Positions 18,750 through 61,300 of a DNA stretch of 64,000 bases are shown piece by piece (position 1 is the first letter of the stretch; each line of letters starts with the position of its first letter). This stretch comes from Utricularia gibba. Taxonomy: Eukaryota; Streptophyta; Magnoliopsida; Lamiales; Lentibulariaceae. Location: the NCBI GenBank assembly GCA_002189035.1, contig NEEC01000014.1, positions 126,501 to 190,500 of the forward strand, written 5' to 3'. A model generated the notes under the pieces. That model saw only the letters and a program-made list of their open reading frames with translations. It was not told the origin of the DNA and ran no database searches. The position numbers and the translations under genes were made by a program.

Positions 18750-21490
18750 TCAGAAAGCTCCCTGGAGAGGAGGGGAGCTGGTGCCGTTAAGATCCAGGCC
18801 CTGGTAGGAACGCCTGGACAGATATTCAGCCCCTGATTTCGCTGCTGTCTTTGGGATCAAGGAGAGCTGTCCCTATTGTTTCTAATTTGGAGGGATCGAT
18901 TGGCAGCGTCTACCAGAGCAAGAACAGGATCACTCTTCGACTCGCATGTAACTGCATCTCTACCTGATAACAAGTAGACAAAGAATATCAGCATTGCTGA
19001 TTCTGGAACCACTCCATCGATTTGGAATGTCTTCTATATCTCAGGATGGAGAATGAGGATGTGAAGAAATGGGCACCTTGTGGGTTCTGGTCTTCAACAT
19101 ACCCTCCCTTGATGAAAGAAAACCGTGCTTCTTCATGCTCCTTAATTGTCGTGGAAGAAACCGAGCTTGTCAAATCTCTGAAGTCCAATGCATAAGCTCC
19201 AGTCCACTGGCATCCCCTACATATTCAGCCAACAATTGCACTTAGCCGACACAAAAATGCACGTGCTTGAAAAACTACTATAGGGGGAAATGAGGAAAAA
19301 ATAATGGTGGGACACGGAGGGCAAGGGAAGGCGTGAGATCCATTCCATTTCTGCAAATGTGGATTCTTAAATCTGTCAAACTATAACGGATGTGCTGTTG
19401 CATGTGCACTCAAACTACAAAGGGAGAGTTGTCATCTTTCTTTCAACTGAATCATGGTTTCTTACGTAAAAGATAACTTGACGATCCCATAGTATTCCTA
19501 GGCCAATTCAATATTGGAGGAGTACCTGTCCAACGCAACCATGGCTTCAAATGGTGTAATCACAGGAGCCAAGAAATCTTTGCTATCCAAGAGTGCCGTT
19601 TGGGCGCAGGAGACATGAACAAATGCATCACACTTTGAAGGCACATGAGGCATATAAGAACTTGGGCGAATTATAGGAAAAAAAAAACACAATGAAATTG
19701 AAAGACTACAAGTTCGTACCTCAGGAAAATTGGCGAGTTTAGAAGGATTTGGCTTTCCCATGACAAAAGTATATGACTTTTTCCCAGCATTCTCTATCAG
19801 TTCTCTCATCAGGTGAATAGTGTGAAGATAGCCAGCTGCAAGGCAACGGTGACTATGAAGAGACTCCTGCATGTACAAAGAAAAAAAATTGAAATATTCA
19901 TATGAAGGACTGCCACCTGCTCCAAGTGTTCCCACCAAGATTCCAATCATGGAGGCATCCTTCACCTTCTCGATTAGATAGTACCTAAAAATTTCTAAAG
20001 AGCAATGAATAACATAGTTTTGTACTATGGACGAGAAAAAAATATTGAGTACCTTCGCTTTAATATCCTCTTCTGGGAGGATAAGTCAAACTCCAGACGA
20101 TCTTCTGTTGCATCATATCTAACTAAAACAATGCAAAACAGTGGTGTTATGTTTGTACTAAAACTGCTGAAGGACAAGAAATAGACTCTGATTCGAACCT
20201 ATTTCAGAGCTGTTGAAAGTCAAGACAGCATTTGCAAATGCTTGATTCTCCAATCCAATCCAGAAGATCAGGTAATCTTCCATTGTTCGCCCATTAGGCA
20301 GTCTCCAACTCAAACCACCTATGCTATGGTATTCACCCTTCTCTTCTAGGTGGCGTTCGCTGCAAGCATTGTTAGCCAATCTTCCTGAATTCGCCTGAAT
20401 ACCAGATGGCCACATAACTGAACAGCTTAAATCAGCAATAGATATTTCTACTGCAGGTAAAGGACCATGTGAACTTTGTAAACCGGACTCTAGCAATTCT
20501 TTTAATTCTGGCATTGCATAGGCGTATTCCAGTCCACAAAGAACCTGGCGAATGGATAAGAATTTTATGTCATTGGCGATAAAAGCATCAAATGGTACTG
20601 GAAAACATCACATTGATTTGTCCATTGACTATTGATTCACACAAGGAACAATTAGCATGCCTATAAAAGCGGGTAAATACAGAAAAAAGCGAAAGAAAAA
20701 TAGAACCATGATACCATACCAAAACAGGCTTGTTACTTTTCACCCCATAATCAATTAAGCACTTGGCACATTTTTCCACCACGATTTGATCTTTTCCAAA
20801 AATGAACAGTGCTGGAAGAGTTGACGTACTGACAATAAGATGATCAGCCAAGAAGTCAAGTGGTAATTCGAAAACACTTGCGTTATGAAAGCTTGAGTAC
20901 AAAATATGCAACTAAGCCACAAACTAGGGAGCATTGCTTGCCGAAACCAATCCATTATTCGATTTTGAACTACTATATGGCGATCTTCAAACTGCTCTGG
21001 TTCGAAGTAAATAGTCAGGTTGTCAAAAGGACACCTTGAAACTTAAAAGCTAGATAAAAACGAACTGCTAAGCGTTTGTGAAAAATCAAAGAACATTTTC
21101 AATTTCTAGTAAATCACAAAGAACACTATGCATGATGGAAAAACCAGTGAACTTACGGGCTAAGGCATGTGTGCCCATAATGAACGACGCATTGGGAATT
21201 AACATGGGCCGCACCAACTTCATCCACACAGCAGCTCCCATAAGTAGTATCAGCCATTACGTAGAGCTTCACTTGTGGATTGAGAACCCGTCGTAAAGCC
21301 CTCACAACCCTCATAGAATCTTTCAATAGGCCATCGGGAAACTAAATAGAGTAAAAGATGAAACTTTAGATTCGAAACGAAGAAAAAGTTGCAACTTTTC
21401 GGTCAGTACCTGCAATGCTACCCTTACATATCCATGATCTCTGATGAATTCTGCTACGCGAGGTATCTCATAATAGGTTTCTAAATCCAT
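18750..21490 (-). CDS. DPH2: Diphthamide biosynthesis protein DPH2 (C-terminal frame break)
   Basis: DPH2 partners with DPH1 in the radical-SAM complex that transfers the 3-amino-3-carboxypropyl group to a histidine of eEF2, the first step of diphthamide synthesis. The start at 21490 gives [16 protein letters not shown]. Exons 21410-21490, 21157-21341 and 20720-20828 are followed by several more. Characteristic stretches are [14 protein letters not shown] and HYGHTCLSP, which hold the family's conserved cysteines, and a later [10 protein letters not shown] region. The frame carried through the last introns stops at TGA 18857-18859, just after [13 protein letters not shown] family-like tail, [19 protein letters not shown], continues in the next frame to a stop at 18750. 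No GT donor lies between, so an intron cannot explain it; one base appears to be missing around 18845-18890. Coordinates here include the shifted tail. Confidence 0.88.
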
Positions 21491-21828
21491 CGCTCCGAAA
21501 CCAGACCAACAAATCCCAAGAAAGATAGCAGATTACCGTTCAAATCATTGCTCAGCAAAGAACAATATTCAGAACCACACGCTTGTTCATTGCCAAATGA
21601 AATTGATATTAGGGTTTAGGTTAGGGCTTTTTGGGGCCAATAATTATATATATAAAAAAACTCCCTGTAGAAAGGATACTGTCCCAGACGGCGTCGTATA
21701 ATCCGTCTTGGAGGGGTAAGTAAACCGAGGAGCCAAATTTCTCGATTTCGTCAGGGTTCTAAAAATAGTGGGGAAGTTGCGTAGCGTTACCTACACGGTT
21801 TATCGGCGCGAATCGATAAACAGTAGTC
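21491..21828. promoter_or_regulatory. Bidirectional promoter between DPH2 and the PITH-domain gene
   Basis: Only 338 bp separate the two start codons, which point away from each other, so both promoters and both leaders must fit here. A telo-box (AAACCCTAA on the minus strand, 21609-21617) sits in the middle, followed by a related TTAGGGC. Telo-boxes are common in plant genes of the translation machinery, which fits DPH2. Co-regulation of the pair is inference. Confidence 0.7.
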
Positions 21829-23326
21829 ATGTCCGGCGAATCGGGAAGTGCTTCTCAGCGAGGCCAAGTGATTCGCCTTTCTCTAACATTTGTTGTTTCT
21901 GCCACGTTCATTTGGTTTGAATGTCTTGGTTATTTTTCTTCGCTCTTTCAGGTTGATTTACTGGACTTCGTGGACTGGTCGAGGGTGGAATGCTTGAACC
22001 AAAGCGCCAGCCACTCTCTTTCAAACGCTCTCAAACAGGTTTTGTGGATCTCTTGATTACGAGTCTTGTTGCTTTAGTTTTGGCATTCGGTACCGTATGC
22101 TGGATTTTGAATGGGATGTTTATCTTATTATGCAAATCAGGGTTATAGAGAAGATGATGGTTTGAATTTGGCGAGTGATGACGATGAACAGCTGCTGATA
22201 TACATTCCCTTTAGTCAAGTTATCAAGCTTCACTCTCTTTTGATAAAAGGCCCAGCAGAAGAAGGTAGCAGCCTGTCCTTGATAACATTCAGCTGTTATT
22301 TAGATGGCTTCGCATCCAACTTTTATGATTATAACACGTTGCGCTGAATCCTTGCACCCTCTAAAGAATATGTAAATCACTTTCATTTTATCAAAAAACT
22401 TAATTTTTGAACCATTATTTTGTTGTGAGGATAAAACTTGAAGTGTTGGTGGTGAAAATCCGCTTGTCAATTTTTTGGTTACAAATGGTGACAGCTTATG
22501 AATTAAGAACAGGGACTTCAATAATTAGCAATTGAGGAATTGTACCTTTCATCAGGATAATCTTAAGGTGCTATATAGTTGTTGTTCAAACATGCAGGTC
22601 CAAAGACTGTGAAGCTTTTCGCTAACCGCGAGAACATGGGCTTCAGGTACTCCATTTGGTCAGTCTAACCTGTAGTACCCTTGCAATGATTTCTGATTGA
22701 TGTTTTATGCAGTAATGTTAATGATTTCCCACCAAGTGATGTGGTCGATTTATCCGCAGATAACCTTGAGGTAAACTAAATTTATGTGTTGTCTTTTTTC
22801 GCTTATCATTTGAACTTCATCGTTGGCCCCTGGTAAGCATGCGTGATACATTTATTTCAGGGTAAACCAGTTGTCCTTAAGTATGTTAAATTTCAAAGTG
22901 TTCGAAGGTATCCTCTGCCCATTTTTCTGTATTTAGCTTGACTTTTTTTTATCTATTACTCTATACGCATAATGCAACTTCTTTCGGGCAGCTTGACAAT
23001 TTTCATCGAGGACAATCAGTCTGGTTCCGAACAAACCAAGGTGCAAAAGATTGTTCTCTATGGCACGACGTAAGCTTTCTGTCTCATGATTTACAGATCA
23101 AAACATTCTTTTTTGTTTGTTGCTTCATGCCCATAGAACTTCAGCATCATGATCCATGGGATTTTGCTACACGTGCTTCATATTTTTCTCAATGTTCCAT
23201 CATCATGTATTCGATCTCCATTGGAGGTTTGTTCAACCATTTGCCCTTACTGGTTTATGTATCTACAAATGTACCAGTGTTCAGACGACAGATATGAAAG
23301 GTCTGAAGAAGATCGAGGATCACTGA
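21829..23326 (+). CDS. PITH domain-containing protein (PITHD1-like, 8 exons)
   Basis: The PITH domain is the proteasome-interacting module of thioredoxin-like proteins; stand-alone PITH proteins are conserved in eukaryotes and their role in plants is little known. Exons 21829-21867, 21952-22038, 22141-22264, 22598-22646, 22713-22770, 22861-22907, 22992-23069 and 23278-23326 join in phase to give 176 residues. The domain fills the protein: [17 protein letters not shown] at the start, [40 protein letters not shown], then [11 protein letters not shown] and KIVLYGTTV. The last exon, only 49 bp, ends KGLKKIEDH. The frame is intact. Confidence 0.93.
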
Positions 23327-23997
23327 TGAATTGTAACCCCAGAGCGATGGAAATTGGTATTTTAGACCCGTCAGGTTTGAAACAGGAAGGTTGATGTCTT
23401 GATTGGTAAAATGTTTCTATGGGTTTAGAAAGTTCTATTTTCTTTCGAGACAAATCAACAAATGTGGATCAATGCGATTTCGATGACATTCTATTTCATA
23501 AGATCCTTTTTCTGCTTTTTTCCCCCAGTTCCCTAACAGGGACAATTAAATCTGTAAATGGTGTTCAAAGAGATAAGAAATCGTGCTTTAGATTATGGAG
23601 TTTTCCACTTAGTCGAATATGATCTGTCCACACAAAATTGGGCCCCTTGTGTTTTATTTTTTATGTTTATTTTTCCTTGAAACGTTAATCAACTGGGCCT
23701 CTCTATGTGTACGGTCCCAGAAGAGATCTCTGGGCTCTGAGGCCCAACAAACAAATCAACTAGTTGGGCCTATTCGTCTATTCGTCTGTCCGATTTAGTG
23801 ACAGCTATCCCTCGTCGGAGAGGGGACGCGAGGGCGTACTACCTTTGAAGTTTTTTAGGGACGGCTTCCTGTCTACTTTTGCGTTTTCGTGGGTGATTTG
23901 CGTGGATCTTTTGGGTGGGGATTCATCGCGAAAGGAGATTTTTATGCATCGCAGACCTCAATCCCCGCTGCATCATTAACAGTTGCCGTCAGTCAAT
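23327..23997. promoter_or_regulatory. 3' flank of the PITH gene and DEAH5 promoter with a cluster of TGGGCY (site II) motifs
   Basis: The right half carries five TGGGCC/TGGGCT elements within about 130 bp: 23639, 23694, 23731, 23741 (reverse) and 23765. Site II elements are TCP-type sites typical of growth-linked housekeeping genes. They sit about 230-360 bp before the helicase ATG at 23998. The region contains no additional gene. Confidence 0.65.
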
Positions 23998-26900
23998 ATG
24001 GCATCTGATGAAGGTATGAAGAAATTAGAGTACTTGTCGTTGGTTTCCAAGGTATGTACAGAACTAGAGTCACATGTAGGGTGGGGGGAGAAGGTGGTGG
24101 CGGAGTTTATTACAGAGTTGGGCCGGAATAGTGCGACGGTCGAGGAGTTTGATGCGAAGTTGAAAGAGAACGATGCGGATTTTCCAGACTATTTTGTGCA
24201 GACTCTTCATAGAATTATTCATGCGATTTTAGCTCCCAATCAGAACACCAAAGCGGATACAATTCAAAGGGAAGCGGGGAAATCTGATTTTTCAGCCTTG
24301 AAAATTCAGGATGGTAGAGAGAGGGTGAAGCAATTAGAGAAGGAAATTGCGGATGAAGTGAAGAGTCGGAAAGAGCTTGAGGAAGAAGAGGGGTATAAGA
24401 ATCAAGATAGGAGAAAAGAAAGAGGCAGAGAGAGGGAGAGGGAGAGGGAGAGGAGAGGAATGAATTTGGTGATAGGGATGATTACGATGACTCTAGAGAC
24501 AGGAGAAGGCACAATGGCAGGGATTCGGATAGGATAAGGAGCCGCCATAGGAGAGATCGATATGATGAAGAGAGGGATGAGGAGAAAAGTACTAGGAGGA
24601 GGGAGAGCGGTGAGCCTGAGTTGTATAAAGTTTATAAGGGGAGGATTTCAAGGGTGATGGATTCTGGTTGCTTTGTTCAGCTTGATGGTTTTCGAGGAAA
24701 AGAGGGTTTAGTGCATGTATCTCAGATTGCAACTCGCAGGATTGCAAATGCCAAGGATGTTGTCAAAAGAGACCAAGAGGTTCATGTTAAAGTTATCTCT
24801 GTTAGTGGAAATAAACTGAGTTTGTCAATGAGGGATGTGGATCAGAATAGTGGAAGGGATTTGTTGCCTTTACAGAGGAATGAGGATGTGGATGGGTTCA
24901 GAACTAATCCGTCAGAAGTGAGTGAATCAAATGGAGGTACAAGGACTAGGATTGGTCTCTCAGGAATCAGGATTACTGAAGCTGATGATCATGTACCTTC
25001 ACGTAGGCCACTGAAGAAAATGAGTTCACCTGAGAGGTGGGAGGCTAAGCAACTGATTGCTTCAGGTGTTTTGAGTGTTAAAGAGTTTCCCATGTTTGAT
25101 GATGAGGGAGATGGGGTGCTATATCAGGAAGAGGGTGCAGAAGAAGAGCTTGAGATTGAGTTGAATGAAGATGAACCTGCTTTTCTGCAGGGTCAGAGCC
25201 GTTTTTCCATAGACATGTCTCCTGTTAAGATATTCAAGAATCCTGAAGGTTCCTTGAGTCGTGCTGCAGCACTACAATCTGCTTTGATAAAGGAAAGAAG
25301 AGAAGTTAGGGAACAGCAGCAAAGGACTATGTTAGATTCTATCCCAAAAGATCTGAACAGACCTTGGGAAGATCCGATGCCAGAAACAGGTGAGCGGCAT
25401 CTAGCTCAGGAACTGAGAGGTGTTGGCTTGTCCGCATATGATATGCCTGAGTGGAAGAAGGATGCTTTTGGTAAAGCTTTAACTTTTGGACAAAGATCAA
25501 AGCTTTCCATTCAAGAACAAAGACAAAGTTTACCCATTTACAAGTTGAAGAAAGAACTGGTTCAAGCTGTCCATGACAATCAGGTCCTAGTTGTGATTGG
25601 TGAGACTGGGTCAGGAAAAACTACTCAGGTGACACAGTATCTGGCTGAGGCAGGGTACACTACAAGGGGTAAAATAGGGTGTACTCAGCCTCGTAGAGTT
25701 GCTGCAATGTCTGTGGCGAAAAGGGTTGCTGAAGAATTTGGTTGTCGGTTGGGTGAAGAGGTTGGATATGCAATTCGTTTTGAGGATTGTACTGGTCCTG
25801 AGACTGTAATTAAGTACATGACAGATGGCATGCTTCTTAGGGAGATTCTAATTGATGAAAACCTATCCCAATATTCAGTTATAATGCTTGATGAAGCTCA
25901 TGAGAGGACGATTCACACTGATGTTCTTTTTGGATTACTGAAGCAACTTGTGAAACGAAGACCAGACCTTCGTTTGATTGTGACATCTGCAACTCTTGAT
26001 GCTGAAAAATTTTCAGGATATTTCTTTAATTGTAACATATTTACAATTCCTGGAAGAACATTCCCAGTGGAAATACTCTACACGAAGCAGCCTGAAAGTG
26101 ATTACTTGGATGCTTCTCTGATTACTGTACTGCAGATTCACTTGACTGAACCTGAAGGTGATGTACTCCTGTTTTTGACTGGTCAGGAGGAAATTGATTA
26201 CGCTTGTCAGTGTCTCTATGAGCGAATGAAGGGTTTGGGTAAAAATGTTCCCGAGCTAATTATTTTACCTGTTTACAGTGCACTTCCTAGTGAAATGCAG
26301 TCTAGAATATTCGAACCTGCTCCTCCAGGGAAGAGAAAAGTTGTCGTTGCTACAAATATAGCAGAGGCTTCCTTAACCATAGATGGAATATACTATGTCA
26401 TTGATCCAGGATTTGCGAAGCAGAATGTGTATAACCCTAAGCAGGGGCTTGATTCTCTCGTAATTACTCCCATTTCTCAAGCTTCTGCCAAGCAACGGGC
26501 AGGGCGAGCTGGGCGTACTGGACCTGGGAAATGCTATCGTCTCTATACTGAGAGTGCGTTTCACAATGAGATGTCTCCTACATCAATTCCTGAAATTCAG
26601 AGGATCAACCTCGGGACGGTTACACTTACAATGAAAGCAATGGGCATCAACGACCTGTTGTCTTTTGATTTTATGGATCCTCCATCACCTCAGGCTCTAA
26701 TTTCAGCCATGGAACAGCTCTACAGTTTAGGAGCTTTGGATGAAGAAGGGCTTCTGACAAAGTTGGGCAGAAAAATGGCAGAATTCCCACTGGATCCCCC
26801 GCTATCGAAGATGCTTCTTGCGAGTGTTGATCTTGGTTGTAGTGATGAGATATTGACTATAATTGCAATGATTCAGACCGGAAATGTCTTCTACCGACCC

Positions 26901-27593
26901 CGGGAAAAGCAAGCTCAAGCTGATCAGAAAAGGGCCAAGTTTTTCCAACCAGAGGGTGACCACTTGACTCTCCTTGCTGTTTATGAGGCCTGGAAAGCCA
27001 AAAATTTCTCTGGCCCCTGGTGCTTTGAGAATTTCGTTCAATCACGATCATTGCGGAGAGCACAGGATGTGAGGAAACAACTCCTTTCGATCATGGACAA
27101 GTATGTCATCCGTTCATTCCTATTTTCCATTGCCTCCGTTTTTTTCACAGTTGGTATCATTTTCGAGGTACAATATTCTAACTGCCTCCCCATCAACAGG
27201 TACAAATTAGATGTTGTGAGTGCTGGAAAGAACTTCACGAAGATCAGAAAAGCCATAACAGCTGGTTTTTTCTTCCATGCGGCCCGGAAGGATCCTCAAG
27301 AAGGGTATAGAACGCTAGTGGAGAACCAGCCGGTGTACATTCATCCGAGCAGCGCCCTTTTCCAGCGGCAACCCGACTGGGTGATTTACCACGAACTTGT
27401 GATGACAACCAAAGAATACATGCGTGAGGTCACAGTGGTCGATCCAAACTGGCTCGTCGAATTGGCTCCCCGGTTCTTCAAGGTCGCCGATCCAACGAAG
27501 ATGAGCAAGCGCAAGAGGCAAGAGCGCATCGAGCCTCTGTATGACAGATACCACGAGCCCAACTCCTGGCGTTTGAGTAAAAGGCGTGCTTAA
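23998..27593 (+). CDS. DEAH5: Pre-mRNA-splicing ATP-dependent RNA helicase DEAH5 (PRP22/DHX8 type), frame break near 24.45 kb
   Basis: Spliceosomal DEAH-box helicase that releases spliced mRNA. The ATG at 23998 ([16 protein letters not shown]) was preferred over an upstream TTG. Order: helical N terminus, Arg/Asp/Glu-rich linker, S1 RNA-binding domain ([20 protein letters not shown], about 24620-24840), then the helicase core with GETGSGKTT (motif I), DEAH (motif II), SAT (motif III) and [12 protein letters not shown] (motif VI), HA2 and OB domains, ending SKRRA. Only one intron, 27101-27199, is seen; it is 99 bp, lacks stops and reads in frame. The first frame stops at 24537, yet conserved sequence resumes in the next frame within the GAGAGG-rich linker near 24430-24470. 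Adding one base and removing the intron gives 1165 residues, matching the about 1168 of Arabidopsis. Confidence 0.93.
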
Positions 27594-32243: not shown

Positions 32244-33487
32244 ATGGCTGATTTCAGTTTATTTGCACCAGTTTTGATGCTCTTTGTGGCCGTCGCGTGG
32301 GCAGATAACGGGAACGATGTGTTGTCGTCACCCAGGCTCTCTCCCTTCTTAGGTACTTCCTTACTGCATCTGAAAACTTCTGGCGCTTAACAACCAACGC
32401 TCTTTGTCGCCTTCAGACAGACTCTGCGACCAGGTAGAGTGCGGAAGGGGAGCTGCGATCCATCACCAGGCCGCCCATTTAGCTTCCGCTGCAACTGCGA
32501 TGCCGGATGGAGGCGAACGGGTCTTGACGATGAGCAGGATATCGAGTTCCTTCCATGCATCGTTCCCAACTGTAAGACTCGCACTGTGTATGCTAATTCT
32601 ATAATATTTTCTTGGCAATCGGCTACCTTCTCGTGAATCCATTCTCACCTTTCGCTTTCGAGGAATAAGAAACAAACACTGCACGAACATAATGTTTTGA
32701 TTCCAAAACTCAGAAGTGGAAAAAGGTTGTACCTCTTGACATACTGCTATTACCAGGCTCGGTGGACTACTCTTGCATGCCGGCAGCCGCTCCGATTGTG
32801 CAACCTCCACCGCCAGCTCCACCTGTTTCATCCATGTTTGATCGTAAGTTAACCCCCTCATTCTCCTAGTTGTATACAAGTCATTCAGCTCTGGTTGCGA
32901 GACAAGCGGATCCTTAGCCTCTGTACCAGAGCTGGACTTTTCTTTCACCTGCTCAGGATCATGAATCTCATACAACTCGAGTAAATGTGTGTTTAGCTTG
33001 CTATTGGGTCAACTGCGGGGAAGGGGTCTGTATAAAGAATGGAACATACTCACATATATGCCGGTGCAATCCAAGCTACTCCAATCTCTTCAACATCTCT
33101 ACATTTCCCTGCTACAGTGACTGTAAGCCTATAAATTAATTCATTTAAAAGAACGAAAACAGCAATGCTAAGTACAAAACTATTTACTTGTTAACCTCAA
33201 GGAAAGATGATTTGTTTCCCAGGTTCAGTCCGTTCGGAATCATGCCAAAGGATTGGTGTACGGGTGGCTACCTCTTCCACAGATACTCGCAGTGATAGCA
33301 GTCAAGGTTTAAATTCAAATTTAAAACACAATTGACAATGAACAACCAAACAGCAACTTGATTTTTTGCAGGTTCAAGGCGTTCTTCATGGATGCCATTG
33401 CTGCTCATTTCTGCTGCTATCGTATGTATCAGTGAACACTCAAGTCCTCAATATCATCTTGCTTCTACAGCTAAATACACAGAATGA
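32244..33487 (+). CDS. Secreted Cys-rich EGF-like domain protein with C-terminal hydrophobic segment (frame break in exon 2)
   Basis: Exons 32244-32352, 32417-32571, 32757-32843, 32997-33122, 33223-33306 and 33372-33487. The protein opens with a signal peptide (MADFSLFAPVLMLFVAVAWA). Two Cys-rich modules follow: the first contains GSCDPSP and FRCNCDAGWRRTGLDDEQD, the second CYWVNCGEGVCIKNGTYSH and CRCNPSYSNL. Between them is the Pro-rich linker VQPPPPAPPVSS. It ends with a hydrophobic stretch (WMPLLLISAAIVCI) that could anchor it or guide GPI attachment. Similar unnamed plant proteins exist; no function is established. Exon lengths sum to 677, one short of a multiple of three. In exon 2 the frame changes at GGGG 32447-32450 between VECGR and SCDPSP, so one G seems missing. 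Confidence 0.85.
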
Positions 33488-36393: not shown

Positions 36394-36785
36394 ATGGCGT
36401 CCAAGAGTAAGCTCCTCGCAATCGTGCTTCTTACTTTCATCTGGGCATCTGCCGACGCGTCGCGAAATCTGGCATCCGTTTCGACTCTCCAATCCGAATG
36501 CGGCTCAACGAGGACGGCCCATCATCCTGCTGGGACGCGCTTTTCGAGCTCAAATCATGCAGCGGAGAAGTCGTACTGTTCTTTCTCAACGGCGAGACGA
36601 CTCTCGGTGACAGCTGCTGCAACGCGATCCGAATAATTGAACGGCAGTGTTGGCCATCAATGATGAGTTCTCTTGGAATCACGCCGGAGGAGGGTGATGT
36701 TCTACGTGGATACTGCGACGCCGCGGAAGCCGCAAGATCGGCTCCGCCGCCGTCCCACCGATGCTTCCCACGCTTGCTTAACTGA
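36394..36785 (+). CDS. EC1: Egg cell-secreted protein EC1-like (prolamin-like), frame broken between signal peptide and domain
   Basis: EC1 proteins are small Cys-rich peptides released by the egg cell at fertilisation that activate sperm. The ATG at 36394 opens a signal peptide (MASKSKLLAIVLLTFIW, cleavage near ADA-SR). The mature prolamin-like domain is unmistakable: SCWDALFELKSCSGEVVLFF, LNGETTLGDSCCNAIRII, ERQCWPSMMSSLGI and VLRGYCDA, with six cysteines in the EC1 pattern. The two parts lie in different frames. The signal-peptide frame runs to a stop at 36636, while the domain frame is open from before 36498 to 36785. The gene family is intronless and no intron fits. One missing base between about 36460 and 36505 would explain it. 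A true pseudogene is possible but less likely, because the domain is intact. Confidence 0.88.
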
Positions 36786-41762: not shown

Positions 41763-44212
41763 TCAGAACTCAAACCCAGTATTCAACTGGACAGAGAGTG
41801 CGGGATGACCTCCCAGGGGAGCTTCCAACTTCACAACTACCCCAGCATCCCCAACATTCCCATTCCACTTGGACCTGCCGACCTGCACACTCAAACATAT
41901 ACCAGATTAACACCTCACAATTCTCCTAAAATTTGTCTGCATCAAGCCTAAATTAAAGGCTTACAGAAACAGATGCAAATGCTGAAGGACGATCGTTTGC
42001 AACAGCACACCCACAGATAAGACTCAATTCCTCTTTCACAGAATGTAATAGTTCCATTTGCACGCCCGGCTGACTTCCACTGAATGCCAAGCACACGCTG
42101 AAACACACAAATGTGAAAGTCTTCGAATTTAAGTTGGTCGAGCATACAGCTCCATCAATTTAAGAACTCATCAGTAAGAGTCCATACAAAACTTTCCAAG
42201 TGCAATGAAGCAGTGTAATTCAAAAGGATATGCAGCTCAAGAAGGGGAAAAAGTATAGCGACCTGAACTGGGTAGCTGGCTTCACGATGAGACCAGATCT
42301 ACGCCATGTCAAAGTCTGTTCCATCCCCAACGCAAATGATTTATCAGGCCACTGAATGCTGGGTGTTACACGAGTTCCCCACTTGTTCTACAAAATTTTC
42401 ACACCAATGACATTCCTATAGTCATTTATCTTCATAAACATGAGTGCCATTACACATTGCCAAAAACATGCAAGTTAAATCGGCTCACTTCATTCTAATT
42501 ATGCAAAAAACATTATACAAACAATCATTAATGTTTCTCGTTAGCAAATTTCCCGGACATGGCATTGCAATTACCTTCATTGACAAACTAATTTGCACTG
42601 CTCCTGGGTATCGACCACGTGCTTGAAGTAACCAACCCCAAAGATGTCTAAAGGCACTAATCGAGACACCCTCACCAGATGTATAGGTAATCTGGCCATT
42701 TGGAAACTGCAGGTCCATGAATGACTGAACGAACAAGAAAAATGAATTAGCAGTCAGTCCACTTTAAGTGAAGAAAAAATGTAATAGAAATCTATCTCCA
42801 AATCAATTCGGGAAAACAAATATGGCAGGAATAAAAATCTATATCCAATCAGACAGAAATTTTCCTTAGCTCTATCATCACTCCGATGCAGAACATAAAT
42901 ACAAGAAATGAAACCACAGTGTCAACTATTATATGAAAGATGGCACTTACGCAGGCCAAAGGGTTGAGATGCATAGTTGACATGAATAGCCATCTCCTGT
43001 GTTTTGACCAAACGGCTGGGCATATAGAATGCATTCTGTTCTGTTTAGACAAAGAAGCTAATAAACATATATGGAACACAAGTTAACCAACAGGAAAAGA
43101 AAACTGGATGATTGCGGGGGGAAAAGGTGGGGAATCATGATAGGGGAGTACCTTTCTGTCATATCCATACCACAAGAAGTGCTGATTAGAGAAATGCACA
43201 GGCAAAAGAAGCGTAGAATCATGAAAAAGGAGTATAGGCCCAAGCTGAAGCAGGAAAAGTGGCCGTTTTTCATTCGTAGATGATGAATTCCCCTGTGAGG
43301 CCTCCACTCTCCACATGTCCCTTTGGCAACCAGAGAACTTTCCGCTTTACCAGTTCTGCTGTTGTATGTTGTTGACATATTAAAGCTACCCTAAATTCGA
43401 ACCAAAAAACATGTAAGAACATGAATGATGAATCAAGGGTGAGATACAGGGCGTGCTTCGTGACAAGCCTTTCTAACTCGATTCTTTTGAATGATTTTTC
43501 ACCTTTACAGAAAAAAGCAGTTACCTTGACCTTGTGAAGAACTTTGTTAACATAACATTCCTAAAACTAAAACTTCACATGCTTTTCCAAAACTAACGAT
43601 TTCAATCTCCACAGAGTTATTCGTGCATTCCACTTTGAAATTCCCAAAAAATCCCTGATAAATTATCAAAACACACTTCCATCAAGTTCGTATCTTCACC
43701 TGTAAACGGCCAAAAAGTTTCAAAATTTTTTCACTGACACCATATCCCTCCTCTTGGGAAGAGGACGAAGTCTCTGCTGATATCCCGTCCTCCGAGATCC
43801 CATAATCCTTGAACTGCTCTGGAAGAGATTTCAAATCTTCTCCCAATGCAATACCAATGTTTGCCCCTTGGCTATGACTCTCTATCCCCCTGAGCAACCC
43901 CACATTCTCATTTCGGAAAGGCGTAGGAAATCGCCTAGCAAACTGTTCAACCACACCATTTACACTTGCACCAAAATCAGCACCCACCTGTCCGATTCTG
44001 TAAGTTAAATCGTCAACAGAGAGACCGAAATCGTTTTTGATGAAATTCTGGATCGGAAACTCGAGACTGGGTGTAGAATTTGGCCATGAAAACGATGGAG
44101 GTGTAATATGAGAATGAATTAACTCCGAAAACCCCTGCGCAAGCTTATCCGCGATGTCCATCCCATGCCTCTGAACTTCCTCCAACGCCTCAAACGATCT
44201 CTCCACAGACAT
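41763..44212 (-). CDS. Conserved plant protein of unknown function (frame break in exon 2)
   Basis: I recall homologous hypothetical proteins in other plants but no named family, so no function is given. The proposed start is the ATG at 44212 (MSVERSFEALEEVQRHG); the open frame reaches 44260 only through a GTG. Exon 1 has ITPPSFSWPN and VGADFGASVNGVVEQF. Later exons are rich in alternating strand-like segments: LFLLQLGPILLFHDSTLLLP, WYGYDRK, CPAVWSKHRRWLFMSTMHLN, FPNGQITYTSGEG, KWGTRVTPSIQWPDKSFALG and GCAVANDRPSAFASVSV. The C terminus ends LSVQLNTGFEF with stop at 41763. Beta-barrel character is only an impression. In exon 2 the frame changes at GGG (43319-43321), between SSLVAKG and WRVEASQGN. 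One base seems missing. Confidence 0.8.
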
Positions 44213-46524: not shown

Positions 46525-49309
46525 ATGGGTAGGCCGCCAAGCAATGGAGGCCCCTCCTTCCGTTTTAATCAAGCTGAGGTGATTCACAAGACTCCGCTAC
46601 CCTTTTGAATTATTGTGTTTTGATTGTTGGCTTGTTGCTTCATTTCAAGTTCTAGACATGGTGTTTCATGTTGGTTGCATTGCGTCTGTTCTAGCTGCCG
46701 TTTCGCCTTGAATAATCCACTGCGCGCTAATATGGAGTCGGTATTTTTTGGATGTTGAAATTTTATTTGAACACGGTTAGAAATTGTACATCTGTTTTGT
46801 GCTTTCCGTGTCTATATAAAGCTAAATTCTAGATTTTTTAACTTGCGAACGCCTCTCCACGGTGTTTGCGTTGTAGTACAATGTGGTTGAGCCTAAGTGT
46901 CTATATGCTTTTTTCTGCCGATATGTAGTATGTTTTGGTGTGAATGTCTTTTATGATCCTGAGGATGATGCCGAAAGCCTTCTCATGATTTATTTTCTTT
47001 TTTCGAGCTGTTCATAGGTAGGAGAAATGGAATCTATTCTGCAAGCACACCAGTATTTGGTCCCCCCACGCGAAGTGCTTGATGCACTTGCCCAGAGATT
47101 CAGGTTGGTTATTTAGAATTCTGCATTGTGCCGGTCTATGTATGTAAAAGTGCGATTTTTTTTTTTGTAGTACATCAGCAGAAAGATATGGAAAGGTGGA
47201 AGTTTCTGCAAAACAAGTATGGAGCTTTTCTCTGTATATCTTCTTTTAACTCCTTTATGGCTGTTTTAGATTATATTTAGCTGCATACAACAGGTGTGGA
47301 ACTGGTTCCAAAACAGGCGCTCTGCCCTTAGAGCCAAAGCAGCTAGGGGAACAGTTCCTGCACAGGTGAATGCCCCTGCTTTGCCTCAACATGAACAATC
47401 TGTTTTAAGAAATATGCCTCAGGCTCCTCTCCATCAAGTTCTTCATCCTAAGGATACTCAGCCTCAGGCTTCTGCTGCAAGTAATATGTTTAAGACATAA
47501 AAAAAATTCTAAATACTTGTTCCTTCGGATGTACCTCTAAAAACAATCGTGTATTTTATTTTATCTGGTTTTTTCGGTGTGTCTATACAGCTTCGTTAAG
47601 GAGCATTCCAACTGCCTCCTCACATGCTGCTTCTGTGCAATCAGGTGTGCTTTCTAAATGCATTTGAAAGAGATCTCGCTGGTGTTTTTTTGGCATATTA
47701 TCTAATGTATTCAGTTTTGTCAGCTTAGAGAATGAAGCCGACACTCATAATAGTAGAAAAATATCTGTTATTCTTTCTTTTCTCGTCTTATTACCATGCC
47801 TCTCCTTTTTGGGGGAGCCGTTGTTATATTAAGTCAAGTAGGATTCCCTGTCTCAATAAGCAATCCTTTTTTAGTAATGCTCTCTCTAATTTTCTGTGTT
47901 GACATGCAGGAAGCCATGCTGCCGAGAATTCTGTGATGGAGTTCGAAGCAAAATCTGCCAGAGATGGCGCTTGGTCAGTCGCTTAAATTGATGTTTTGTA
48001 AGTATTCTTTGAGTAGGTTAAGTGAATGTTGAACTTAGCTATTACTGGTTCAGGTATGATGTTGCATATTTTTTGTCACACAGAGCCCTGGAAAGTGGAA
48101 ATCCGGTAATTCTTAATGCCTGTAACCATTTTAAAGCTCACCAAGTTCGTTTCTCTTATATTACTGTATGCAATTGTTTTATTTTTGCGTTTCTGGAATT
48201 AAAAAAACCAAACTTTATTCCTACTGTTGACCCTCTTTAGTCTCCAGTTTGAACATCTTTATGTTATGTGGGGTATAAGGACAATAAGTCGAGTTCCATC
48301 TGCCTTAATCTGCGTGTACTTGGTTATCTTCTGGGTTTCTGTTACAAGGACAATATATTCAACCTCGATTATATTCATTTTCGTATAATATTTAATTTTC
48401 TATCAACTCTGTGTTTACGTGGGATCCTGTAGGAAGTGCTGGTTCGTTTTTCTGGATTTGGAGCTGAGGAAGATGAATGGGTCAATGTTCTTCGTCTTGT
48501 TAGGCAGCGATCTCTTCCATGTGAATCATCAGAGTGTGTTGCTGTTCTTCCTGGGGATCTTATCTTGTGCTTTCAGGTTAGTGTTATTTCATCGATGAGA
48601 AAAGATATGGCAGGACAAATATTGCCTCAGAAGTCTTGCAAGAAACTGTCGATTGATCGTGTGAGGAACTAAGGTCTCTCTTACAGGAGGGCAAAGAGCA
48701 AGCATTATACTTTGATGCACACGTTCTTGATGCCCAGAGGCGGAGGCACGACAAGCGAGGCTGTCGTTGTAGGTTTCTTGTGCGTTATGATCATGACCTA
48801 TCAGAGGTATCTCTTTCTTCACGCAAAGGGGCTGATGTGTCTGGCTAAGAATATCTTAGTGTGCTAATTCTTCTTTTCCAGGAAATAGTTCCCTCAGGAA
48901 GATTTGTCGTCGCCCTGAAACTGACTACCGGCTGCAGCAACTTCATGCAATACCTCCAAATGTCAACCAGCAGAAGCCCATTATAGAGACTCAATCAAGA
49001 AGTGTGTTGGAGGGGGTGACCACGCAGCAGCCGAAGGCCAACCAAAATGTGCATAATGTACCCACAACCACCGCACTCGGAGGTTCATCTCTTCCTGCTG
49101 CCTCTGAGCCCTCCGCGGCTGCTGTCAGTGTTAACCCCTCCAGTGAATCTGCTACGCATACTGTAGCTGCCCCTCTGACGGCCTCATCAGGACCAAGCAT
49201 CATACCGCCTGCCACGGCTGCTGATACCACAACCGTGGAGTCTTCCATTTCAACATCGAATCCTTCTGCTGCGGATTCCAAGGGAACGCAGCCCCAGCCT
49301 GACGGTTGA
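46525..49309 (+). CDS. SHH2: SAWADEE homeodomain homolog (SHH2-like), frame break in the SAWADEE domain
   Basis: SHH proteins read H3K9 methylation and unmethylated H3K4 and guide RNA polymerase IV in RNA-directed DNA methylation; SHH2 is the longer paralogue. Start ATG at 46525 ([18 protein letters not shown]). A divergent homeodomain occupies the first 80 residues, with helix 3 as [15 protein letters not shown] near 47294. The SAWADEE domain begins [20 protein letters not shown] and continues [36 protein letters not shown] and [16 protein letters not shown]. In the next exon EIVP runs into CCC (48891-48893), after which the conserved [19 protein letters not shown] lies in the next frame, so one C seems missing. 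That frame continues through a Ser/Thr/Ala-rich tail to 49309. The long tail favours SHH2 over SHH1. Confidence 0.9.
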
Positions 49310-52371: not shown

Positions 52372-53850
52372 ATGAGACACTGGAACATGGAAAATAGGAG
52401 GGTGTTGCCTTTCGCCATAAATTCAGCCGTATGCGTTTTCCTACTATCAGCCTTTTTCAATATGGAGCTTGTGTTTGAGTTGCTTACTGGCTTCCCGAGC
52501 CGTGCCATAGGAAATGACAGTCAACCGTGCTTCATCGAGGCAAAGATTGGTAACGCTCCACCGCGCGCCCACCTTTCTACTCCAAAGTTTGCTTACCTTA
52601 TTTCTGGTTCAAGAGGAGACCTGGAGAAACTTTGGCGAACTCTCCTTTCTCTTTATCATCCTTGGAACTATTATCTCGTTCATCTGGATCTTGAATCACC
52701 TGCTGTGGAAAGATTAGAACTTGCCATTCGGGTTGAAAGGCACCCACTTTTTGCACAAGTTGGGAATGTTATAACCAACAACAAATCAAACATGGTTACA
52801 TACAGAGGACCTACAATGGTTTCCAATACTCTTCATGCTTGCTCTATTCTTTTACAGAGATATGATGATTGGGATTGGTTTATAAATCTCAGTGCTTCTG
52901 ATTACCCATTGGTGACTCAAGATGGTGGGCTTTGTTACGTTTATGTGTTTGTATTTAAATAATATTCTGTCCGAGTTCACTTAACCCGTCGTTTTTTGCA
53001 GATCTTCTACACACGTTCTCCCATTTGGAACGAGAATTGAACTTCGTGGAACACACAAGTGACTTGGGATGGAAAAGGTGGGTTCATGGATTTGGTTTGT
53101 GGTTCTTGTCAAGATTTTGTTGATGAGATCCAATTTTCATTATGGTGGATTTGCTGCAGGGATCACAGAGCAATGCCGCTGATGATAGATCCTGGACTCT
53201 ACCTTTCAACAAAATTCGACGTTTTTCCCGTAAAACCGAGAAGGCCTTTGCCAACAGCTTTCAAGCTGTTTACTGGTAACCAGCTACTGAAACCGGCTTC
53301 CTTATACAAAGTAGAATTTTTCTCCAAAGAATACGTGACTTTGACTGCAGGTTCTGCTTGGATGATTCTGTCTCGAGCATTTGTGGAGTACTGCATACAG
53401 GGTTGGGATAATCTCCCAAGAGCTCTTCTCATGTACTACTCAAATTTCGTTTCCTCCCCTGAAGGGTATTTTCAGACAGTTTTATGCAACACCCAAGAGT
53501 TTGTGCCAACAGTTGTGAATTATGACATGCATTATATATCTTGGGATGTCCCTCCACAGCAACACCCTCGTATCCTCTCGCTTGATGACTATGAGAATAT
53601 GACCAAGAGTAATGCTCCGTTCGCACGTAAATTCGACGGACGCAGCCCTGCACTGGACAAGATCGACCAGGAGTTGCTGAGGAGGAATGGGAACTTTGTT
53701 AGAGGTGGATGGTGTGCCGGTAAGCCTCTTTGCTCTGAAGTGGGAAATCCCACCAAGCTTTCACCTGGTCCTGGTGCTGAAAGGCTTCAGATGCTTGTGG
53801 ATAAACTGATTCATTCACCTGAATTTAGTGACCAACAGTGTCAGATTTAG
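52372..53850 (+). CDS. GT14 family glycosyltransferase (GlcAT14-like beta-glucuronosyltransferase)
   Basis: Golgi type II membrane enzyme of CAZy family GT14 (core-2/I-branching domain). The plant GlcAT14 group adds glucuronic acid to arabinogalactan proteins. Exons 52372-52924, 53002-53077 and 53160-53850 join in phase to 439 residues. A short basic N terminus is followed by a single transmembrane anchor (INSAVCVFLLSAFFNMELVF). The catalytic region has FAYLISGSRGDLEKLWRTL, NYYLVHLDLESP, VTYRGPTMVSNTLHACSILL, WDWFINLSASDYPLVTQDD, FVEYCIQGWDNLPR and FVSSPEGYFQTV. The order and spacing are those of Arabidopsis GlcAT14A-C. The start could also be the ATG 15 bp further on. Exact donor and acceptor specificity is inferred from the family. 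Confidence 0.92.
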
Positions 53851-54238
53851 AATCCCATTTCTGTAGAGAAAGAAAGAGAACCCATTGTGAAAGTGTCACC
53901 ACACTGTTTTGTTGGGTATAGTCTGGGGGATGAAATCGAGTTGGCGCTATAGCATGTGTACACTGACCTGTTGGAAGCATTGTTTTACGTCATCACAAAA
54001 GGGTAGTCCTGTATTTTCTAGACTACATAGCTAGGCAAAGTTGGGCAGCAGTTATGCATATAGACTTCACCTACATACAAAAATAAAATAAAAAAACCAT
54101 GTTCTCTTCGGTTAGAATTAGTCTAAGCTACAAACTAAACAAAAAATGTGTTTCTGAGAGCACTTGCTCTATTATGGTCCAAGCATTAAGCCTCAGCTGT
54201 AACCTTTGGTATCCGAGATCAGTTGGATGCTACTTAGC
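53851..54238. other. Convergent intergenic region (3' UTRs of the GT14 and SPA genes)
   Basis: 388 bp containing both 3' untranslated regions, with AAAATAAAATAAAA near 54080. No gene is seen. Confidence 0.6.
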
Positions 54239-57213
54239 CTAAACCATCTCCAATATCTTGATGTTCCCCATGGAATTTGCTGCCACTAAGGTGGAAGACT
54301 GCCCACGCCAACACACAGATGAGACGAACAAAGTAGACTCGTCCACTTCATTGGTGGAAAGTGGATCTGTGAATTTAAAGGAAGAAGCTGGCATGGGAAA
54401 AGCCTGATGGTAAACATAAACCTGCAATGAAATGTCGCTCAGAGTCTTTCAATTGCTGTTCGATATTGTGAAGAGAGAGCAGTTGGTACGCAAAGTACCT
54501 CGTTTGTCTCAGAGCCAGTTGCAATGCAACCATCAGATACAGAGAGACCAACAAAATTCTGTCATGAAAAAAAGACCAGATTAGCTTTCATTCGTGTGTC
54601 ATAGTCACCTTCGCTGTTGATGGAAGCTGGTGCAGTGCAGTCATGCATACCTTGATGTTCAAATGGCCAGTATATGACTGCAGAGGACAATCAATAACTC
54701 CAGAAGCACCCATGGATAAATTCCAAAGCTTTATTGTGTTATCCGTGGAAGCAGAAACAAGTGTTGTAGGATCAATAAACTTCACATAGCTCACGGTCTT
54801 ATCGTGGCCAGCCAGAATGCATAATGGTAGCTTTGTATTACGAAGATCATAGTAGTGTGTCTTATGGTCAGCTGATCCATATGCGAGGGAACGACTGGAG
54901 TTCATGGGGAACTGGACACAGCAAACATTTGCTTTTGTTTGAATCGTACCGACGCTCACTCCCTGCAGTAGCAGCACACGTAAGAAAAGGGAAAAGCGGT
55001 TCTGTCCAAAGAACTTGTGAAAATACAATTACATGGTTGGTATTCCAAAGCTTAACAGATCCATCATCACCCCGCTAGCCAGCAATGTTGGATCTGCAGA
55101 CGAGAAGTCGACTGACCACACACGCTGTCCATGCTCTCTCATTTCCATGAAAGTGCGACTTCTGGTAACATCCCATACCTGAAGGGAAAAATCATTGATA
55201 ATGAGGATGTTAGGGATCAAATAGATAAAATGTGCAAGAAAACTTAGCTCACCTGCACCACACCTTCAAAGTTACTAGAGGCAATATGACTTTGAATGTA
55301 GGTATTCCAGCATATACTACTGAGCTTTGATGTACTCGTCATTTCAACCATAGGATAATGAATATCACGATCACTACTCAAGATCGAGTTATACTGAAAA
55401 ACTTTAATCTTCTTGTTTACACCAGCTGTTGCCAAAAGCTCCCCATCACCGTCAAAACAAAGTGAGCTCACCAAATTCGACGAGTTTGAGAGACCCCCTT
55501 GATGCAAATCTGCCTTAACTTTTAAGTTATTGAAGGAAAAATATTTGCATAATCCTAGAAATGAATGCATCCATCCACTTTGGCTACGGTCATGTGACTT
55601 CTCCTTTGACAACTGATTACTGATGGAACTTGTTTCAATTGGTAGACTGCACTCTCTGCCACAATTATTCACTTGAGAATACGACCTTGATGCAGATTTC
55701 ATAAATTTGCGCCTTGTCATGAAATAGGATGATTCCAATTCTCTTAAATCACTCATCAACCGAGAACGTTTGGGTAGAAGTAGCATGCCTACATTGTCAT
55801 ATCCATCTTCCTTTTCCTTGGTAACATGATCAGCTGGTTGCATGATTTGTTTCCTGGAGCCTGAGCTGCCGGCATCATAATGCTCTAGAGGGTTGAAAGA
55901 GCCAGAAACTGAATCCTTGAATGCCGGCTGAAGTTTTGATACTTCTTCTATGTCGGCAGAAAAGATGGATATGGTGCCCTTTAAGCTATCAGCTTCTTCC
56001 TGTTTTTTACGCTCAAGTAGCATAAGAAACTCCAATAGCAACTCTTGCTCCACTATTTTCTCTTGAAGCTCAATAGCTGCATCTCTTTCTTTGATGCCAC
56101 CCCTTGGTTCATTAAGAAACTCACTTTCCAATATTTCACTGTTGCATAGAGAAGAATTGTCAAGAAAAGTAGAGGCACATAAACTGGCCCTGTTCTTTCA
56201 TCTGATCAAACCACTCCTTTCTCGTTGGATTTTATGCTGACAATCCACAAAATCCAAAGAGAAGCAGGGATCAAAAAAATCTTTGAAAGAACAGAGACAT
56301 CGTGCTTTACAGCATTTATTATTACATTTTGAAACTAGACAGAATACTAGATGTCAACAGATCATTAAAACCCACTTGATTTTTGGCCGGCAATTAGGTT
56401 CTGGATGCAGCAACAGCAAACAGAATGACGTTTCTCTAGGCCACTTAGAAAGCAAGTTTGGAGGGAGTACACGATGTCTCAAGTTCACCATGGCTGAGAT
56501 TTTCTCTTCCAGTGAACTAAAAGTGCAAAATAGCTAACCATACATGGAAAAGTGTATAAGATGAATACAAAAAAAAAAAACTTATTCAGAAGCATTTCAC
56601 AATCGTAAGCAGAACAAACCTCAAAGAGTAATACACCAAGGCGATAAATATCTGATGTCGAACATGAAGGGCCACCATCAGCTTCTTCAGAAGAGATATA
56701 AAAACTTGACTCCATGAGCAGTATCTGTTTCGTAGGAGGGCAAAACTTCTGTCCACTCATTCCATCCCCAAAAGCTCCATTGGGAAGAAAACCGATGCCT
56801 GAGCTTAATTGCAAACAGATTGCTTCTGATTTACCTAGTGAAATAGCATGCGGACGATTTAGCACATTCATATAATCTAGGACAACGAGCTCGCTTTCAC
56901 AATCCTCATTTGATTGTGACTCTTGAGGTAAAAGAGAAGAAGGGGCCTCCCTATACTTTGCAGTTCGATCTTCTGATCCATGAGTTTGAGATTCTGGGTT
57001 CAAGCAAGAAGGAGATTCAATGAAAGAAATACGGTCTAACGAGGACAAAACAAAGCACGAAGGCCTCACATTGTGAAAAACATTTCCTTCAGAATGAGCT
57101 AACCTCACAATACGGGCAATTTGAGAAAATATGTGCAGGCAATCAAGTGCATTCACTATTCTTTCTGGATTATCCAACCACTGCCTCAAACTTACCACAC
57201 TGGAATCTACCAT
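54239..57213 (-). CDS. SPA-type COP1 partner (SPA3/SPA4-like): kinase-like, coiled coil, WD40; one frame break
   Basis: SPA proteins bind COP1 to form the CUL4 E3 ligase that degrades light-response transcription factors in the dark. The ATG at 57213 begins MVDSSVVSLRQWLDNPERIV. The kinase-like part has HNVRPSCFVLSS and TSDIYRLGVLLFE. An exon near 56390-56515 encodes the LRHRVLPPNLL segment. A coiled coil follows (ERDAAIELQEKIVEQELLLE), then seven WD repeats, including VWDVTRSRTF, WSVDFSSADPTLLASG, GSADHKTHYYDLRN and STDNTIKLWNLSM. It ends VCWRGQSSTLVAANSMGNIK and ILEMV. At GGGG (minus strand, 55070-55073) the frame must shift for DDGSVKLWNTNH to follow LLASG; exon phase with the next exon confirms this. 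The kinase-like half is short, as in SPA3/4. A possible further N-terminal exon is blocked by a TAA at 57235-57237. Confidence 0.9.
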
Positions 57214-58381
57214 CCAGATAATTGGCCCTACACCTTACTCATCCACACTCTGATCTCTACGCCTACTGCCAAATTGCGGCCAACGAGCTCCTTCCATTTC
57301 TTTTCTGGTGGAAACACGACCAAAATCATTTTCCTCAGAAAACCAAGTAGTTCCTGCTCCACGATTTCGCGGGTGTCTGCCAGAAAACGAAGAATGCAAT
57401 ATTCATGAATTATCAGACCCTCTCCAGCAAGACTAAGATGGGCCAACCATAATTAAACGATCACTAAACTTCTTGAATCCACAGGGAATCAAATCATGGC
57501 CTTTTTTCTGGACATTGTGCGTCCAGCGATTAAGCTAATGGAATTCCAGCAATTACCTTCACAACCAAATACCAAGTTTTTGAGAATCTTATACCAATCC
57601 AAAACAACGATCATCCATATAACTAAAGAATAACTGCATACAACACCCACTGTAAATCATCCTCTTCTTGATCACATAAGCGTCTTTCACAAATTAAGCA
57701 TGTAACCTTAACCCAGTCCACCCACATAAGCAGTTTGAGAGTTCAAAGAAAGTGAAAGATTCACTAGAGAAGAAGGGTGGTATTAAGGCCTCGCTTGCTA
57801 GATCAGTATCGGCCACACAAAACTAGTAAAAAGCAAAAAACTTTTTTTTTCACAGTAGCTTTGCGGCCTCACGAACTCTCACACCAAGTGAAAACAACAT
57901 ACAACACAGTCGATACAGCAGAGCAGATATATTTAGACACAGTAGTGATGATTTATCTCTGCACTTTATTGCATATTGCATTAATAAAACATATATTGCT
58001 AACGTCACCTTCACCGGGAATCAGGCAGACAGCAAGACGTGGCTCATCCTCGGCCTCTTCTTTTTCGAGTTCGCACAACCGGCAGTACAAAACTATTCAA
58101 TAAGTATAGAGAAAAAGGATACAGAACTTACCGATGCCGGCGAGTCTCCACCGATGGGGTGCGGTTTAGAGATTCCCTGATTCGTAGATTCAGCATTTTC
58201 GTTCCCTTTTTAGCTTTATAAACAAAAAGCATCAAAATTTTTTTGGAAGAGTTTTGATACACAACTAGTGGCTGATACATTCGGCTTCACACAGGATCGA
58301 TCCATGGGAATAGCTACGGCGAATAAATGACAGGTTATTAAAGAATCACGGATACGTTTCATGCTCATCTGCTCCAGAAGT
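57214..58381. other. SPA 5' region: possible upstream coding exon, 5' UTR exon and promoter
   Basis: Read on the minus strand, 57240-57390 has an open frame (SEENDFGRVSTRKEMEGARW, then FGSRRRDQSVDE) in the same frame as the SPA start but separated by TAA 57235-57237. It could be SPA N-terminal sequence. A putative 5' UTR exon ends at a consensus donor (CATCG/GTAAGT) near 58130. The rest shows no gene. The stop of the CDK-related kinase lies at 58382. Confidence 0.4.
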
Positions 58382-61300
58382 TCATCGCCCAGAAATGAAT
58401 GCCGTGTTCATTGATAACTGGTTCCGGACAACCTGCTGCTTTCGAAGTCTCTCCTTGTCGAGCCGAGCTCGTCGGACCGCCTCTTGGATTTGGCGGTCAT
58501 GATCCTTGAGCATCTGATCCATTTTGCCTGATGGAGCTAGCAGCGGCCCTGAATAATGGATCTTGCTGCTCTTTGACCCTTTTCCCTGCCCGAGACAAAA
58601 GTAGTTTTCATGCGTAAGTCAGCTGACTCTGGACTATGATCTTCAAAAATTTCTTAGGAGGCATCCAGAAGACGGGAACTTTTTGAGAAAAAAAAAAAAA
58701 ATCACTCTGCAGCACGACACGCAGGGCAACTTACAGGAACAGGATTGATGCTTGCTCTCTCTTCATCCTGTTGCCGGCTGTTACGGTCGTCTGGCCTCAT
58801 GGTTGCATTTGAAGTCTCTTTTAATGATCCTGGAAATCGAGACATAAGTTTTGGAACGTCATGCTGAGAATAACCTTTTTCTGTGTGTTCCTCAGACAGC
58901 ATGCGTCTTCTGGATGACACTAAACCAGACATGGCTGATAACTCTGTCACGTCCAGATTTTTTGAAGCAAGAGGATCCTCCATGTTCTTTCCGGATTTAG
59001 CCCAGGCGGCTCTATTGACCAAAGGTCCGGAATGGGAAGCCCTCTTGTGAATGTTTCCCTGCAGATCATCGTTCGCATCTTCCACAGGGTGTGGAGGTCT
59101 AGGGGGTCGATTGGAAAACCAGAGGCCACTTCTTCAGCGTGAGAACTGAACACCTCACTCCTGCTCTTCAAATTCGATTGCGCCTGCCTTTTCTGTGTAA
59201 GCAGGATGATGACGAGAGTTGGAACAAGACGCATGCGAGATGGCATACCAAAAAGCGCATTAGGAAAATAAGTGACCTTCATTGATGGCATTAATTCTGC
59301 ATTGGCATCGGGTGCAGGAACAGCACGTGAATCTCTATTTCCTCGCTTTTCGTTGACAAACTTTTCACCTCTTATTCCAGCAGCCGCTTGCCTGAAAATT
59401 TCACCCAACAGGATACTTTAGGTACCAACAACATAGACTATATTTGGCTAATGGGCAAAGATTCAATACAAAGTTAACTTTTGAGGGAAAACACTTTTAG
59501 ATTCACCTCCTTGCTTCTTCATCTCGCAATTTGGCATCAAGCTCCTTGCTTGGAGAATACTTAGGCAAACTTGAAGGATCACAAGGTAGTGGTCTGGTTG
59601 TGAAGAACTGTGAGAGAAACCGTACAATTGATTACAAGACCCTCATCATGAACGCAAACACATCTTAGGTAGATACTAGAAAAATTTTCCAATTGACCCA
59701 AAGTCAACAAATAAAAGCTGGAAGTCAAAAAAGTTGGTGAAAACTTCAACCAGTCTTTCTTACCTCGCTATTCAATGCAGCAGCTGCAGAGCCACGATCA
59801 GCAGGATCTATAGACAGCAATGTTTCTATGAGTGCTAAAGCCGGTGCTGGGAAGTCTTTATACATCTCAGCAATGTGGCGCTTGTAAGGCTGTTGGGGCT
59901 TGAAAATTGTTGCATGAGGCAGCTTTGATTTTCTCCAATAATCCTCGGAAGGTGATCCACAGAGTTTGAAAATTTTGTGCAACTGCTCAACCTACACATG
60001 CATCACGTATAAAGATAACGTTCATACAAAAGAAAAATGAAGGCTTTCTTGCTTATCCAGTTTCATACGGAAGAAAACAGAATGGCAATGAACTAGCACC
60101 TCATTTGCTTGGATTTAAAATTTTTCCTACCTCCGTTCTTCCAGGCATAATAGGTTTGCCAGCATATAACTCAGCAAGAATGCAGCCTGTGCTCCACAAA
60201 TCAACAGCAGTGCTATACTGGGTTGCACCAAGTAAAAGTTCAGGGGGCGGTACCAAAGTGTCACAACACGGCTTGTAAGAGGATGATTCAGATGAGGGTC
60301 ATAAAAGCTAGCAAGACCAAAGTCTGCAATTTTCAGGATGCCATTGTTGTCGATTAGAAGATTGGAACCTTTTATGTCACGATGGAGAACACGTCTACTG
60401 TGACAATGATCTAGGCCCTCTAAAAGTTGCTTCATGTAACATTTTACCTGGAAACATGGAGACAGTGCGATGTTTTTTAGTTTAGGTGAAGGGATTAATG
60501 TAACCCTTCTCAAATCAACACTGTAATCCAGCTTTTACAGAATCAAAAGAAGATACCTGACTTTCAGTAAACTTGATTGCAGGGTGGGATGCAAGTCCTG
60601 CCAAATCATGTTCCATGTATTCAAAAACTAGATACAGACTACAGGACATTCTTGAAGTAACGAGGCCTTCCAATTTGATTACATTTGGATGGTTGAGTCT
60701 CCGCAAAATGTGAATTTCTCTGGCCATGAAGCGAACACTTTCAGGTTCAAGGTTATCAAACCGTACCTTCTTCAAAGCCACAATCTTCCTTTGATCAAGA
60801 TCTCGGGCACGATAAACATTACTGTAAGTGCCTTGACCAATCTAAACAAAGTAGAAGTAAAACAAGATTAGCAGTAATGTTTAAAAAATACAGATACAGA
60901 ATTTGCAAGAGAAAACGTGCAAAGAAAAAAATTATATTTAGTTGAATATTGAAAAGGCAGAAAAAAATCATGAGACTCACAACTCTTGCAAGTTCCTCAA
61001 AGTAAAAAGACTCATGAGTGCTTCGATTATGGAAAATCAAATGCTAAAGATGACAACGTCACACCTTGTCCAGTTTTTCGAAGGAGTCTGCCCTTCTAGG
61101 CAACCATCCAGCAATAGCTTCACCAGCCACTGCAGCCAACCAAGATGGCCACCCGGCCGCAACCTGTTCCCCTTCAATCGCTTTAGGAATCATAACCACA
61201 CCGGGATGACGCATCCCCAGAGAATACTCAGCCTTTTCTCTCTTCCTGTCCGGATTTTCTCCCAGTAGTTTAACTGAGCCATTGACTTGCTTATCTATTA

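Follow-up and report, generated by a model that had tools for sequence, protein, structure and literature searches.

The window analysed here, a stretch of 64,000 nucleotides at C98:126501-190500 in a plant assembly of 100.09 Mb and 516 contigs (C411, C505, C414, C3, C375 and similar labels denote other contigs of the same assembly), carries eight genes in which conserved protein sequence passes from one reading frame into another. We read the frame switches by three-frame translation at each of nine listed sites, a drop of the offset by one (from frame f to frame f-1) meaning that one base is missing or that two are extra. The original prediction had claimed nine breaks of the same sign in these eight genes. 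All nine are present in the three-frame reading, each of them one base short, and a tenth brings the window total to ten breaks in eight genes, with none of the opposite sign.

Two of the breaks lie in DPH2, on the reverse strand. The first, at 18845..18890, is one base short by three-frame reading only and is not pinned to a single run. The second, absent from the original list, is also one base short and falls in the zone 18741-18785, which contains a C4 run (18772..18775); by three-frame reading the protein sequence NGTSSP... goes on as ...GRSGKASGYRDE in the next frame. A DNA search of the plant's own genome found no close copy of DPH2. The gene for the splicing helicase DEAH5/PRP22 (DHX8-like), on the forward strand, is broken at 24452..24453, where one unit of a GAGAGG repeat reads GG, not GGG. 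Residues 10-152 of its N-terminal frame match residues 20-179 of human DHX8, and residues 15-898 of the downstream frame match residues 204-1089. Because the two frames match successive parts of DHX8, DEAH5 is one gene split over two frames. The same kind of DNA search gave only distant helicase matches in the genome and no close second copy of DEAH5.

Two further breaks on the forward strand affect an EGF-like gene, at a G4 run (32447..32450) inside a continuous Cys-rich three-frame reading, and an EC1-like gene of the Prolamin_like type, at 36497..36505. In the latter, Prolamin_like (PF05617) is found in the downstream frame and a signal-peptide-like N-terminus in the other. A gene at 43-44 kb on the reverse strand is broken in a G3 run at 43319..43321 (CCC on the forward strand). 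The SHH2-like gene, on the forward strand, is broken in a C3 run at 48891..48893, with the SAWADEE domain in the preceding exon, and the SPA-type WD40 gene, on the reverse strand, in a G4 run at 55070..55073. The CDK-like kinase gene, also on the reverse strand, is broken twice in C5 runs, at 59102..59106 in its C-terminal part and at 60243..60247 in the kinase domain. The latter is the clearest site of all: residues 99-164 of Pfam Pkinase are matched in one frame and residues 165-201 in the next, the two matches overlap by 4 bp of DNA, and the piece after the break aligns with CDK11B as PELLLGA...

Most of the breaks had been predicted to lie in G/C homopolymers, and this is borne out: seven of the ten sites fall in G/C runs of 3 or more, which make up about 5% of the window's bases (binomial probability about 1e-7 to 1e-6). 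Among the listed breaks the assignment fails at the EC1 site (TGCGGC), which has no long run and lies outside any run of at least 3, and the DEAH5 site is only a GG. Window genes without breaks include a GLCAT14-like gene (52.3-53.85k), a RALF gene (50.07-50.54k) and an open reading frame of 568 codons (38.96-40.66k). A further break suspected at 52,932-52,992 turned out to be an ordinary intron.

Intact and shortened gene copies

Related copies, their stretches about 66-87% identical, turned up in DNA searches of the plant's own genome for the kinase gene (C411, C505), the SPA gene (C414, C3), the SHH2-like gene (C375), the 43-44 kb gene (C411) and the GLCAT14-like gene (C414, C3). At all five break sites with such copies (43319, 48891, 55070, 59102 and 60243), there are copies in frame, either through one more base or through an interrupted run. 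The C5 run at 60243 is C6 in the C505 copy and a T followed by C5 in the C411 copy, and both copies are in frame. The CCC at 48891 corresponds to CCCC on C375 in a context that is 97% identical, and the C411 copy of the gene broken at 43319 is one base longer overall. At 55070, where the window has G4, the C414 copy is intact with G5 and the C3 copy shares the window's shortfall. Likewise, the C5 run at 59102 is equally short in the C505 copy, while the C411 copy, in which the run is interrupted by a G, is in frame. The GLCAT14-like gene presents the reverse situation: the window run is interrupted by a T and intact, the C3 copy has C5, and the C414 copy is short with C4 (locus L047, near 6531). 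That several copies are intact just where their run is interrupted, and that different contigs have short copies at the same uninterrupted runs, points to a run-dependent error pattern and not to inheritance.

According to the original prediction, homologues sharing the same shifts would speak against an assembly error. Formally, such sharing occurs at the two sites just described (C505 and C3), but these copies belong to the same assembly, and in both cases the remaining copy is intact. The error model itself predicts that a given long run will be under-called more than once.

Frame breaks across the assembly

In an unbiased survey beyond the window we scored all 69 candidates in the assembly for GRAS, a mostly intronless family. 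Breaks were typed from coordinates, by frameshift-aware alignment and by reading by eye. Among the 69 candidates there are 25 intact full-length matches, against 16 genes that fall into adjoining pieces read in different frames. About 19 of the breaks, which lie on a dozen contigs, lack one base and 2 have the opposite sign; these counts are good to about 2. Some 13-14 of about 18 lie in runs with a frame-implied length of 4 or more, the placing of a break in a run within its zone being a matter of judgement, and two lie outside G/C runs. The shortfall depends on run length. As examples, five runs with an implied length of 7 are written as 6 (C142, C1:4158k, C255, C412 and C375:2186k), one of 6 is written as 5 (C375:1928k), one of 5 as 4 (C244:1855k), and two of 4 as 3 (C213:2030k and C3:262k). 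The reading frame implies five C7 or G7 runs, yet none is written in 23.8 kb of GRAS loci, and G/C runs of 5 are mostly correct. An apparent split of opposite sign on C4 proved to be a true intron. Three GRAS loci have several breaks, namely L065 (C3:261182-262252), L068 (C414:3443952-3445017) and L067 (C244:2105347-2106219), the last of which contains an in-frame TGA nonsense codon and may be a real pseudogene.

In the tables for HSP70 and UDPGT, all contiguous splits share the same offset. Breaks were found on C1, C2, C3, C142, C213, C244, C255, C328, C375, C412, C414, C480 and C505, with no tie to a particular locus or gene. By our estimate the rate is similar, one break per 2-2.5 kb, in the GRAS coding sequence (about 20 breaks over 45-50 kb) and in the window (ten over about 20-25 kb). 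The original prediction placed the defect in the window; it affects the whole assembly.

Redundant contigs and run lengths

Parts of large contigs recur in several small ones at 99.5-100% identity, which makes the small contigs redundant or allelic (C241/C304, C316/C412, C377/C321 and C251/C244). Over 3,001 bp, C316 and C412 differ by one substitution and by three gaps of a single base (G, C and C), the gaps all lying in the small contig C316. C251 and C244 are free of substitutions over 2,501 bp and differ by a single C dropped from a C4 run. Together, these two pairs give one substitution and four single-base gaps in 5.5 kb, all of them G or C, and three lie in C4-C5 runs. Between real alleles, substitutions would be expected to outnumber indels; here the reverse is seen, with losses of G or C only. 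C377 and C321 are identical over 3 kb. The pair C241/C304 has 16 substitutions, and is therefore probably a diverged copy or allele and not a clean test. One gap among the redundant pairs is an A outside G/C runs.

Run-length counts are only weakly informative. The window has no G/C run above 6, where a Markov expectation gives only 1.6-2.1 runs of 7. Genome-wide there are 14,854 G6 and 2,706 G7 runs, a ratio N7/N6 of 0.18 compared to about 0.21 at random, which is a mild shortage of long runs. The run-length spectrum does not by itself prove under-calling. A G6 motif in 18S rRNA is G6 in the C317 copy and G5 in the C244 copy, the match on C244 extending over only about 79 bp and so not being a clean control.

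Discussion

We consider it very likely, with a probability of roughly 0.93, that the breaks in the window represent residual consensus under-calling of G/C homopolymers, and that in the plant itself these genes are whole. The assembly would be a long-read-only consensus, very probably the PacBio HGAP one of Utricularia gibba. Such a consensus would lose one base from a share of its G or C runs, more often when the runs are longer, and each lost base would shift the reading frame so that healthy genes look broken. That the real genome has the extra base, and that consensus calling is the cause, is very probable from comparison of the sequences. Under-calling, as proposed in the original prediction for a long-read assembly, is supported by the intact copies, the GRAS survey and the redundant contig pairs. 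The deletion sign is shared by 10 of 10 breaks in the window and about 19 of 21 in the GRAS genes; the breaks concentrate in homopolymers and become more frequent as the runs lengthen; they are spread over the assembly; and two pairs of redundant contigs differ in run length with few substitutions.

The published PacBio assembly of U. gibba was made with HGAP at 88x coverage and has a contig N50 of 3.4 Mb (PMC5793159), and the PacBio Quiver consensus has been reported to exceed 99.999% accuracy for microbes (PMC4053942). One indel per 2-2.5 kb is surprisingly high for an 88x Quiver consensus, unless polishing was absent or weak. The high error rate thus suggests either that polishing was missing or weak, or that G/C under-calling is systematic in the chemistry used. 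The errors resemble the residual, gene-fragmenting indels of other long-read-only assemblies (PMC12007338, PMC8812927), which are likewise single-base, mainly in homopolymers, frame-shifting and pseudogene-mimicking. The errors here differ in that nearly all of them are deletions within G/C runs and in their frequency, which is high for the reported 88x.

The most serious alternative is that the frameshifts are real, in duplicates decaying after repeated genome duplications, with replication slippage in G/C runs as the commonest first hit. Several of the broken genes do have multiple related copies in the genome, replication slippage likewise prefers long runs, and some true pseudogenes occur, a candidate being the GRAS gene with a nonsense codon at C244:2105k. 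Nevertheless, we judge decay to be quite improbable as a general explanation. Of some thirty events, all but about 2 share a single sign, and splice sites and protein conservation are retained on both sides of the breaks. The mixed indel sizes and signs, stops and relaxed conservation typical of pseudogenes are not seen at the window breaks. Several copies have independently come out short at the same runs, the differences between redundant contigs of a single locus are of this kind too, and DEAH5 and DPH2, single-copy genes of an essential type, are affected. There is a slim chance that the EC1 break and the first DPH2 break, which have neither a G/C run nor an intact copy, are real recent frameshifts among many false ones. 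A further alternative is that the frameshifts are real but tolerated, G/C runs being places where programmed ribosomal frameshifting or slippage during transcription rescues the protein. Such rescue would preserve protein conservation on both sides of a break and could accommodate the two sites that are short in two related copies, but it is scarcely credible given that the intact copies are not short, that the sites bear no relation to one another in gene or context, and that run length differs between redundant contigs of one locus. Nor are G/C runs of 3-5 known to act as slippage sites in plant nuclear genes.

Under consensus under-calling the breaks hold little biological interest, and their significance lies in truncated gene models. 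About 40% of GRAS genes read as broken in this assembly, most of which are probably intact. Claims of gene loss, truncation or pseudogenes made from the assembly, as well as automatic gene models, need a check at read level. A truncated DCL3 has been published for U. gibba, with 5' RACE support (PMC8333044). At our candidate DCL3 locus (C213:2761-2763k, within L090, C213:2753600-2763500), the RNase III part is present, with no Dicer_dimer match nearby, and reading by eye found no helicase-like sequence in open frames in the 6 kb upstream. We considered the published truncation as a possible by-product of run error, but given the 5' RACE support and the lack of Dicer_dimer or helicase-like sequence we do not ascribe it to frame breaks. 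The candidate locus is consistent with the published truncation, which frame breaks do not explain. As a separate observation on the assembly, the sizes of C1, C2, C409, C505 and C507 are round numbers (8,500,000, 6,192,500, 2,492,500, 3,452,500 and 642,500, respectively), as if these contigs had been cut at chosen positions.
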